IMG/VR virus record: IMGVR_UViG_3300017971_000516
Span: 1-37,342 of that record
Reading direction: 5' to 3' (one strand)
Length of the DNA stretch: 37,342 nucleotides
Source of the DNA: a virus
The first letter of the stretch is position 1. Each line of letters opens with the position of its first letter. Under the pieces are notes generated by a model. It made no database searches. It saw only the letters and a program-made list of their open reading frames with translations, and was not told the origin of the DNA. The position numbers and the translations under genes are program-made. Positions 29,416 through 37,212 of this stretch are shown here, piece by piece.

Positions 29416-30309
29416 TTACGCATCCTCCAAACTTACTGGTGGTTCCCAGTCTTCATCTTCGTACCACCTGATCCAGAGCAGCTTGCCTGTTTCGCGTAGC
29501 TTGTGCCATACAGCCTCAACTACGGAACGATACTCAATAAATGTCTCACCATCTTCAGGGAAGAAGGCTTTAACATAAACGTCTAGTACATGCTCGAACA
29601 TATCCTTATCATTATCCATATAGGCTAGTGGCTCGAACATCGCAGGCATAGCACGTACTCCAGCAATCTTAAACAGGCCAGGAATATGATCTGCTGTATC
29701 TCCCTTGATTAACTGAGCATAGAAGTTCACTCGTGCCTGATCATAGCTAATCTTGTAACGCTCGTCTTTTACAAAGTTATAATGACGACCAGGAATGTTA
29801 TCAAGATCCTTATCAATAGAACAGATACAAGTCCTTTCATCTACAGTCTCCATCTGAGCTATACCCAAAGCGTCATCTGCCTCCTGTCCTTCAATGACTA
29901 CAGCACCCCAGCGATTAATAAGATAGTCAGTAATGGCTCCGTAGTGAACGGGCTTAGGACTATCCTTCCGATTCGCTTTGTAATAATCTACAAGAGTTTC
30001 ACGGTAATTGCCACCACCAGAAAGATAAACAGTATAGCTAGTAGCTCCACACCCATTGATAATACTCTCCATTTGTAGTTTGACTGAGTGTAAGCAGTTC
30101 TCCACCGGATCAGGGACAATACGTTCTTCAATCACGAAGTCGCTGCTGTCTCCACCATGAACATCTTTGATCCACTTGTTGTACTCAGTCTTCGAGTCGA
30201 AGGTGGCGAGAGGCCCGCAAGCCTCTTCACCACGTACAAATACATCAATGTACTTCTTCTCGCAGGCAAATCCTACGCGATAACGTAAAACTTCACTAGT
30301 CGCCGTCAA
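29416..30309 (-). CDS. 5'-3' exonuclease (FEN/T7 gp6-like), N terminus disrupted
   Basis: This 297-residue protein has the FEN motifs VIEGQEADDALG (about residues 136-147), ICSIDKDLDNIPG (about 157-169) and KGDTADHIPGLF (helix-hairpin-helix region, about 199-210). T7 gp6 relatives begin with a DGD motif whose first Asp binds metal. Here RALIDGD (30319-30299) lies just upstream but in another frame, ends at TAG, and has CTT where ATG should be. The only in-frame start is TTG at 30309, giving MTATSEVLRYRVGF without the DGD. An AGGAGG at 30345-30340 lies 30 bases off. It may be inactive or rescued by recoding. Confidence 0.7.
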   Translation of the reverse strand: MTATSEVLRYRVGFACEKKYIDVFVRGEEACGPLATFDSKTEYNKWIKDVHGGDSSDFVIEERIVPDPVENCLHSVKLQMESIINGCGATSYTVYLSGGGNYRETLVDYYKANRKDSPKPVHYGAITDYLINRWGAVVIEGQEADDALGIAQMETVDERTCICSIDKDLDNIPGRHYNFVKDERYKISYDQARVNFYAQLIKGDTADHIPGLFKIAGVRAMPAMFEPLAYMDNDKDMFEHVLDVYVKAFFPEDGETFIEYRSVVEAVWHKLRETGKLLWIRWYEDEDWEPPVSLEDA

Positions 30310-30337
30310 TCAGAGCACGAAGTCTCTGCTGACGGCA
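30307..30337 (-). promoter_or_regulatory. Hairpin between a strong ribosome site and the exonuclease start
   Basis: On the minus strand CCGTCA-g-CAGAG, loop ACTTCGTG, CTCTG-at-TGACGG form an 11-bp stem. It starts directly after AGGAGGGTTG (30345-30336) and ends on the TTG start of the exonuclease. It includes the RALI codons of the out-of-frame exonuclease start. It could block or reposition ribosomes. Confidence 0.4.
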
Positions 30338-30354
30338 ACCCTCCTTTTTATTTT

Positions 30355-30834
30355 CTAAAGTTTGCATATTGCTCTCTTTGTGTAATTTGAAAATACTCGT
30401 CTGTACTGCTGATCTAACCTAGCTTTCCAATTAAATTTATTACGGTTAAGTCCGTTCTCCTTTCTGTACTGGTTGGTCGCCACCCTACACATATTATGAA
30501 ATCCATTCCACGTATGAGTTGTTGTGCTGAACTCACGGATAGGATGCAAACACTTATGATACGAACAGTAGCTATGGGTATCTGGCCTGCCCCCTAAATC
30601 CAGGATACGCTGTCTAGCATGTAGCAGTCTGTGGTAAGATTCATCAGGACATACAACAAGATTACTATTTTTATTGTTTGTCTTGTCGTAGTCTACATGA
30701 TGTACTCGTTCTTGCCATGACAGCTCCCTCCCTAGAGCTGCCTCTGCCACTGTTCTATGGACGTATTGATCATGACCGTGACGCTGGTATCCGTTCTTAT
30801 CTTTCCATACATCACCGTCCACAAGAGCGCGCAT
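30355..30834 (-). CDS. HNH homing endonuclease carrying the exonuclease's first codons
   Basis: This 159-residue protein starts MRALVDGDVWKDKNGYQRHG. The HNH core is QERVHHVDYDKTNNKNSNLV with YHRLLHARQR (about 44-80). A second Cys/His region (CSYHKCLHPIREF) follows, and the C terminus is basic. The first eight residues, MRALVDGD, are not part of the HNH family's usual start and match the missing N terminus of the 5'-3' exonuclease encoded next. It begins one base after the SSB stop. It is probably a selfish element inserted at the start of the exonuclease gene. Confidence 0.85.
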   Translation of the reverse strand: MRALVDGDVWKDKNGYQRHGHDQYVHRTVAEAALGRELSWQERVHHVDYDKTNNKNSNLVVCPDESYHRLLHARQRILDLGGRPDTHSYCSYHKCLHPIREFSTTTHTWNGFHNMCRVATNQYRKENGLNRNKFNWKARLDQQYRRVFSNYTKRAICKL

Positions 30835-30835
30835 C

Positions 30836-31480
30836 TTACCAATCCTCGTCTTCTTCCGGTACGTCTGCTTTAGGAGCCTCTGGGATAGAATCATCTGGAG
30901 CTTCAAGAGAAGCAGTCTCATTACCAGGATTCTCTACATCTACAGTCTTGGCAGTAGTAGGAGCTGCGAGGTACACCGCAAACAGATCCTTGGCTACACC
31001 AAGCACATACTCTTTGTAGCTCTCCCACTTCTCGTTCTTCTTGCTACCAGCTACAGTCAGGAACCCTTGTGCAATACCAGAGTTGACCATCTCAATAGCA
31101 GTATTAGTAGCTGCCTGAAAAGAGATAATCTGCTGACGTTCTACGTCAAGCTGCTCTTTGTTGTCCCAGTACTTCTGACGAGCTTCCCAGTTCTCAGTAG
31201 TCTGACCACCACCACCGCCACCTGACTTCTTGTATGAACCAGCAGACTTGTTCTGAGATACCTGTGGGGCTTCCCCTTCCTTGGACTTAAAGCTGTTCAT
31301 ATCTACGTTCCAGTACTTGCCATTCTGACTAGCCTCGAACTTAACCTTATCACCCTTATTTACTTTGGGATTGCGTACACCACAACCGTACCATGTACCG
31401 TCAACCAGGATAGAGAAGTAACGCTTCCCACCTGACTCACGATTATTTGCTGCTTCTACATAACCTGTTACTTCACTCAT
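30836..31480 (-). CDS. Single-stranded DNA-binding protein
   Basis: This 214-residue protein starts MSEVTGYVEAANNRESGGKR. The N-terminal 70 residues look like an OB fold (YFSILVDGTWYGCGVRNPKV). A Gly-rich linker (KKSGGGGGG) and a helical segment follow. The tail is acidic and ends EEDEDW, the partner-binding C-terminal tip known from T7 gp2.5 and bacterial SSBs. It should coat single strands during replication and recruit polymerase. It has an AGGAGAGATAGATT ribosome site and lies just before the replication nucleases. Confidence 0.7.
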   Translation of the reverse strand: MSEVTGYVEAANNRESGGKRYFSILVDGTWYGCGVRNPKVNKGDKVKFEASQNGKYWNVDMNSFKSKEGEAPQVSQNKSAGSYKKSGGGGGGQTTENWEARQKYWDNKEQLDVERQQIISFQAATNTAIEMVNSGIAQGFLTVAGSKKNEKWESYKEYVLGVAKDLFAVYLAAPTTAKTVDVENPGNETASLEAPDDSIPEAPKADVPEEDEDW

Positions 31481-36704: not shown

Positions 36705-37056
36705 TGTCTTGGCTCCTGTTAGCTTTCCAGTCACACAAGCCCCAATGTGAATAATTGCCTATCTCCTGCATTACCCTTCGGCCTGCCAGCGTCAATCCAT
36801 CATCATCAGTTATCTCTTGGAGTTGGAACGAGAATGGGGCTGTCCAAGTAGAGGCAACCTTATCAATATGATTAAAGAACCGCGCCTGCTCATCTGACCC
36901 AAGATCGCAGAACATTGCAGCAATAAGCTCTGGGGTTAATTCCTTTATATGTTCTCCAACAATTAGCCTTATGTCACCCATTGTCTTTGCTCCTGTAGAG
37001 TTCTCTGGTAACAACCATCTTAGGCCCCAACCTTTGCTAGTTCCCGTGTCACTCAT
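36697..37056 (-). CDS. Small hypothetical protein with two cassette starts
   Basis: Two in-frame ATGs carry the same ribosome cassette: one at 37056 (119 residues, MSDTGTSKGWGLRWLLPENS...) and one at 36981 (94 residues, MGDIRLIVGEHIKELTPELI). The 25-residue leader may be a separate ruined gene or a second isoform. The main domain has a helical LTPELIAAMFCDLGSDEQAR and a TAPFSFQLQEITDDDGLTLA stretch, and ends GLCDWKANRSQDNE. No family recognised. Confidence 0.55.
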   Translation of the reverse strand: MSDTGTSKGWGLRWLLPENSTGAKTMGDIRLIVGEHIKELTPELIAAMFCDLGSDEQARFFNHIDKVASTWTAPFSFQLQEITDDDGLTLAGRRVMQEIGNYSHWGLCDWKANRSQDNE

Positions 37057-37212
37057 TGTCTTTGCTCCTCAAATCCAGCTTATTGATATATGTGAGAACA
37101 CCCAGATAATCGCCTCTATAAGCGCCCATCCAACGAGGCCCGCGATAATCATTAGGACTATAACAGCCGCTTTGATTCCTTCTCCTATACCTTCATACAT
37201 TGTCTTGGCTCT
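36702..37212 (-). repeat. Repeated start cassette GGAGC(A/C)AAGACA-ATG
   Basis: The same 15-base translation start occurs at 37068-37054, 36993-36979 and 36716-36702, and as AAGAGCCAAGACAATG at 37213-37198. A GTG version, GGAGCAGGACAAGTG, occurs at 34120-34106. The copies support the chosen starts and suggest that gene duplication or recombination built this region. Confidence 0.6.
37069..37200 (-). CDS. Single-span membrane micro-protein, 43 residues
   Basis: Starts MYEGIGEGIKAAVIVLMIIA with an ATG at 37200 that overlaps the stop of the gene wrapping the window ends. It has one long hydrophobic helix (about residues 9-36: KAAVIVLMIIAGLVGWALIE) and a short tail ending SWI. It is among the first genes of the leftward operon, so it might alter the host membrane early in infection or be a superinfection-exclusion peptide. 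That role is conjecture. Confidence 0.5.
   Translation of the reverse strand: MYEGIGEGIKAAVIVLMIIAGLVGWALIEAIIWVFSHISISWI

Follow-up and report, generated by a model that had tools for sequence, protein, structure and literature searches.

A phage 5'-3' exonuclease gene of the T7 gp6/FEN type very probably carries at its 5' end a homing endonuclease element that brought a recoded replacement for the piece of the gene it displaced. Homing endonucleases normally spare the host gene: they lie within introns or inteins, or next to genes. Judged by sequence comparison, three elements, representing two nuclease families, occupy the same exonuclease gene at the same motif: an HNH nuclease in IMG/VR phage record IMGVR_UViG_3300017971_000516 (37,342 nt; "the window" below means this whole stretch), an HNH homologue in L236, and an EndoVII-type nuclease in L199. 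All three elements come from metagenome contigs. Nucleases from two unrelated families thus appear to have entered a single phage gene at its catalytic codons, each with a recoded copy of the part it displaced.

On the minus strand of the window, genes for a family A DNA polymerase, a DUF3310 protein and an ssb-like protein with an acidic tail are followed by the HNH/duplicate region and the exonuclease. An ssb-like gene precedes the exonuclease in L231, an uninterrupted locus described below, and in L236 too, in the same position as in the window. The features of the region, in order of transcription, are as follows.

30836 to 31480, minus strand: upstream ssb-like gene, with its stop TAA one base ahead of the ATG of copy A
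30811 to 30834, minus strand: copy A, the native exonuclease start ATGCGCGCTCTTGTGGACGGTGAT (MRALVDGD), matching the start in relatives and now the start of the HNH gene
30355 to 30834, minus strand: HNH endonuclease ORF of 159 aa that continues copy A in frame (from Pfam, PHROG and L236 homology), with its stop TAG at 30357-30355
30292 to 30810, minus strand: putative insert of 519 nt, comprising the HNH body, the B copy and the join nucleotides
30296 to 30367, minus strand: B reading frame, from an ATG (30367) overlapping the HNH stop, through MQTLENKKEGCRQQRLRALIDGD, to a stop TAG
30339 to 30346, minus strand: AAGGAGGG, which resembles a Shine-Dalgarno sequence, at the hairpin's 5' foot
30298 to 30340, minus strand: RNA hairpin of 17 pairs with one bulged A, copy B as its 3' arm and its foot at the UAG (-27.4 kcal/mol, z -3.9)
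30299 to 30322, minus strand: copy B, the recoded duplicate CTTCGTGCTCTGATTGACGGCGAC (LRALIDGD)
30307 to 30309, minus strand: TTG, the sole conventional start near this end of the callable exonuclease ORF
30292 to 30298, minus strand: join nucleotides TAGTGAA (7 nt) between B and the body, opening with an in-frame UAG
29416 to 30291, minus strand: body of the resident exonuclease, beginning at V (VLRYRVGF) and uninterrupted as far as its stop (from PHROG, fold and motifs)

A preliminary description made from the sequence had noted that the HNH protein starts MRALVDGD and that a second copy, RALIDGD, lies out of frame before the exonuclease body and is followed by TAG TGA. This is confirmed in the sequence. 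When every 7-residue peptide in the six-frame translation of the contig was compared, RALIDGD scored 34 against RALVDGD (self-score 35) and the next-best peptide scored 21, so chance is excluded as the source of the A/B duplication. The two copies differ at 8 nt, which fall at codon positions 1, 3, 3, 3, 1, 3, 3 and 3; part of their similarity could reflect later exchange. The protein fused to copy A contains an HNH domain (Pfam HNH_3, E 1.4e-8; 34.6 bits vs a cut-off of 24.8) and matches PHROG HNH endonuclease families. As a lone query, it found no viral relative.

Relative to B, the open frame of the exonuclease body is +1; the body is assigned to the phrog_107 exonucleases (E 4.6e-47). The motifs EADD, DKDLD and GDxxD are conserved, and outside its start the callable exonuclease is predicted to adopt a FEN nuclease fold (pLDDT 93.4), with plastid exonuclease 1, T5 D15, mycobacterial flap endonuclease and E. 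coli ExoIX as best PDB matches. The fold and the downstream acidic motifs of the T7 gp6/FEN group are therefore present, and the first metal-binding Asp, in strand 1, is absent. At the first Asp position of the DxD motif, more than 90% of relatives have Asp and the ORF started from the TTG (MTATSEVLRYR) has Thr4; its Thr4 and Glu6 replace the two Asp of DxD. To judge from these residues, an active window exonuclease would need Asp from copy A or B, and the first metal-binding Asp is available only with copy B joined to the body.

HNH-free relatives, collected in two viral contig scans (86 distinct loci by the later count), begin with Mx-AL(I/V)D(G/A)D, followed by exactly three residues and then Y (mostly YR), all in one frame. 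Because relatives keep these three residues fixed from DxD to Y, the native join can be placed at DGD/VLRYR. This spacing sets the insert at 30810-30292 (519 nt, with a 2 nt boundary ambiguity), at the conserved DxD motif that binds metal, between exonuclease codons 8 and 9, and leaves 7 extra nt at the join of B to the body. The 519-nt insert, the 17-bp hairpin and the ATG at 30367 that opens the B frame were all absent from the preliminary description. That description had suggested that dropping CTAG would restore the reading, a rescue that we reject because it leaves one residue too many for the family spacing; the extra nucleotides are TAGTGAA. It had also named two observations that would count against capture of the start, namely HNH genes elsewhere with a start like MRALVDGD and intact exonucleases without DGD. 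Neither refuted it: a broad HNH profile gave 80 loci, among which none of those inspected starts like the window HNH, and relatives of the exonuclease do start with D(G/A)D.

Scans of viral contigs with the DNA polymerase and terminase and a blastn search against phages found no close relative of the window phage, nor did viral contig scans and blastn against phages find one with an empty site; scans of bacterial genomes gave no matches. Occupied and empty alleles at one site were seen instead for a homologous pair, L236 and L231, which come from different metagenomes and are about 90% identical in both flanks. The empty allele, L231, has an intact exonuclease start, ATGAACCCGGCTCTCGTGGACGGCGAT, immediately after the ssb-like gene. 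In L236, an HNH protein that is 50% identical to the window HNH and lies at the same site in the exonuclease gene begins MNPALVDWKLNGY.. and opens with the same first 21 bases as the L231 start (21/21). In both the window and L236, homology between the HNH proteins begins at W-K, after the captured residues. The L236 HNH stop overlaps a new ATG, then AAT CCA GCA CTT GTT GAT GGA, a B copy in which the residues are unchanged and every codon after the ATG is changed. Across exonuclease codons 1-15, 15 of 45 positions differ between L236 and L231, mostly synonymously, with codons 2-15 as the recoded span; across codons 16-280 only about 4% differ (p about 1e-9 for the contrast). The L236 rescue is in frame and its exonuclease is intact.

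Since A in L236 equals the L231 start and B is recoded, A was resident and captured, and B was imported with the element. The evidence supports the homing-endonuclease invasion, start capture, and duplication and recoding of the target proposed in the preliminary description. The pair reverses one part of it: on this comparison, B arrived as part of the insert, and is not a leftover of the resident gene. Whether the copy is broken is a separate matter, and there the earlier wording stands as a possibility. Its direction, with B native, A and the HNH gene inserted upstream, and the 7 nt a separate lesion, is now improbable. B does adjoin the body, and either copy fits the family spacing, but the L236/L231 pair shows the opposite origin, and in the window A directly follows the stop of the upstream gene, as the native start does in L231.

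The third element, in L199, places an EndoVII-type nuclease at the same exonuclease motif, again with a captured start and a duplicate. This motif class is known from the homing endonuclease F-CphI (PMC6083498). The nuclease ORF starts MIGIVDSD, which is the expected exonuclease start, and its stop TGA overlaps the ATG of the duplicate ATG AGC CAA ACT GTT GGT ATC GTA GAC TCC. The duplicate frame ends in TAG, and the body, itself intact, resumes GAT ATT CTT after TAGCC (5 extra nt). Captured starts were absent in 11 EndoVII-type genes upstream of other phage genes, which served as controls, and also in the EndoVII genes beside the exonuclease of cyanophages S-CBP2 and SS120-1 and Pseudomonas phage 254. 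The EndoVII gene of the last (L261:1440-1938) is annotated as two small ORFs, probably a misannotation, with one frame open from about 1472. In L178 (1588-1980), an EndoVII-like ORF immediately precedes the ssb-like gene, and the exonuclease that comes next has no clear ATG at its own start.

Other nucleases sit at the edges of the same gene. In Klebsiella phage Asterion (L267:1115-2373), compared with VR7901, which is HNH-free upstream (L268:1192-1992), an HNH gene lies directly at the exonuclease start, as in the window, and its stop overlaps the new exonuclease ATG, as in the elements described here. Unlike the window HNH, it has its own start and captured nothing, and the exonuclease N-terminus is only slightly changed, from MIPLIDAD in VR7901 to MSMVALIDAD in Asterion. 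As an isolate, Asterion offers a setting where homing could be tested. HNH genes also overlap the exonuclease 3' end in L082 (2860-4127) and L264 (1483-3125), where an EndoVII-type gene follows in L264; these are possibly 3'-end counterparts of the same strategy.

Our explanation for the three elements begins with a nuclease that would cut the exonuclease gene at the DxD codons in phages lacking the element, which would then be copied in by break repair. The resident start, A, now opens the nuclease protein, and the insert supplies B, a mostly synonymously recoded copy of the displaced codons whose recoding would prevent recutting. In the window, the join of B to the body holds UAG and four more nucleotides, which ordinary translation is unable to read, and the exonuclease is either broken or rescued by unusual translation. 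The likeliest reason for the interruption, to which we give roughly even chances, is a break-repair scar at the cut site that would make the join uncuttable and inactivate the exonuclease by costing it its first catalytic Asp.

The main alternative, which competes with this last step only, is that the join is functional. In that case, ribosomes would read along the B frame and stall at GAC-UAG, refolding of the upstream hairpin would pull the mRNA, and decoding would resume at GUU to join RALIDGD to VLRYR; the short insert would also protect the join against the element's own nuclease, as has been proposed for the bypass of T4 gene 60 beside its homing endonuclease. Of the 3 occupied loci, 2 have a UAG immediately following the last B codon, compared with none of 79 distinct HEG-free starts (Fisher p 0.0009; p 0.025 without the window, through which the feature was ascertained). 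In both the window and L199, B forms the 3' arm of a hairpin with its foot at the UAG, and the shapes are alike: five upper pairs sit above a lower stem, and a single A bulges out on the 3' side. Their fixed-frame z-scores (-5.7 in the window, -3.0 in L199) are the two lowest, compared with -0.9 in the uninterrupted L236 and a mean of 0.1 (SD 0.8, minimum -2.5) across the 79 HEG-free control starts. The window hairpin sequence did not occur in other viral contigs. A stop directly after the take-off codon (GAC TAG) and a stem-loop at the take-off site, 5' of the stop, are both features of the gene 60 bypass (PMC5009743), and both exonuclease bodies are intact. However, the take-off and landing codons, identical in gene 60, agree in only 2 of 3 bases (GAC/GAA in the window, UCC/GCC in L199), the required shifts are unequal (7 nt and 5 nt), and the B peptide is short (23 residues in the window, 10 in L199). 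A joined product is known in neither case, and we consider bypass unlikely, if well above a remote chance. A sequencing or assembly error at a strong hairpin, with a true join in frame, seems slightly less likely still: these are metagenome contigs, and the extra nucleotides fall at the foot of a 17-bp hairpin, but L199, from another sample and with another nuclease, is interrupted likewise at the same motif, and neither interruption is a homopolymer slip.

Least probable by far is a self-splicing intron or an intein that carries the HNH ORF and joins A to the body exactly upon removal. Removing the 519 nt does yield exactly DGD/VLRYR, but no Rfam match, and with it no conserved group I or II catalytic core, was found at the gathering or a relaxed threshold, and the ORF leaves no more than 63 nt of the insert free, in agreement with the preliminary description, which had found no room for a group I intron. 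An intein is excluded by the stops, and in L236 the intact rescue makes splicing unnecessary. Two other routes through the window join were also rejected. In +1 slippage at GAC-UAG, the Asp tRNA should be unable to re-pair on ACU, to judge from codon pairing; and if UAG were read as sense, a TGA comes next in the same frame, while other genes in the window end in TAG.

The closest natural likeness to our preferred explanation, a nuclease element with a recoded replacement, is found in fungal mitochondria. In the Glomus mORFs, for which Allomyces atp6 is the reference case, the duplicated C-terminal ends have diverged and the hybrid genes are transcribed (Beaudet 2013, PMC3630166). As in the window, an endonuclease ORF interrupts a conserved gene and is accompanied by a second copy of the gene end it displaced, diverged and for the most part synonymous. 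In the shared design, the imported end takes over the completion of the gene from the native end, which is displaced. Unlike the window, the mORFs involve the C-terminal end, a LAGLIDADG or GIY-YIG nuclease, and mitochondria, and the native end is a remnant, whereas in the window it is the nuclease start. Taken as a rescue-carrying mobile ORF, the window insert does contain a duplicated, diverged copy of the displaced host-gene end; in-frame fusion of the duplicate to the body is present in L236 and absent in the window and L199. With its duplicate out of frame, the window is therefore mORF-like and not a working member. Tremella introns with N-terminal host-gene duplications (PMC7315562) similarly replace a resident N-terminal piece with an imported one, but they are intron-borne and mitochondrial, and the window has no intron.

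Among phages, T4 mobA in a topoisomerase gene and mobE in Aeh1 nrdA are described as splitting their genes, in a source that mentions no coding duplicate (PMC2988022). Like the window element, mobE is an HNH homing endonuclease inserted where a phage gene is functionally critical; unlike it, mobE leaves two working proteins and no duplicated end (PMC2988022). T4 mobA with the 50-nt bypass of gene 60 likewise places a homing endonuclease in a phage gene (PMC5009743, PMC2988022), and the gene 60 insert, which is thought to protect against cleavage, resembles the window's in being short, with a UAG after the last codon and a stem-loop. By contrast, bypass in gene 60 is proven and in the window a candidate, and gene 60 has matched codons and no recoded duplicate. 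In the part of the literature that we covered, no recoded duplicate together with a captured start was described for any phage homing endonuclease, which is weak evidence for novelty.

The design is that of engineered home-and-rescue gene drives, and in the literature found, natural cases occur only in fungal mitochondria. In HomeR, the target is an essential gene, and the nuclease that cuts it brings along a re-coded version of the part beyond the cut as a rescue (PMC7968924); cutting in the window would be analogous, and HomeR differs in being synthetic, in using Cas9 and in acting at the 3' end. The L231/L236 pair of empty and occupied alleles makes recoding as immunity directly testable. 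To our knowledge, very few cases of natural translational bypass are known, and the UAG-plus-hairpin joins of the window and L199 are short, concrete candidates. A more ambitious and doubtful possibility is that these are natural home-and-rescue elements in which a hairpin drives ribosomes past a short UAG insert, so joining the rescue copy to the resident exonuclease, and in which this insert also keeps the element's own nuclease from cutting the join. This would be a second kind of homing endonuclease and bypass cassette after T4 gene 60, in one gene and with at least two nuclease families.

Elsewhere in the window, two 23-nt direct repeats (36972-36994 and 37047-37069) are 96% identical and lie 75 nt apart, and each covers the start of a small minus-strand gene together with its ribosome-binding site.
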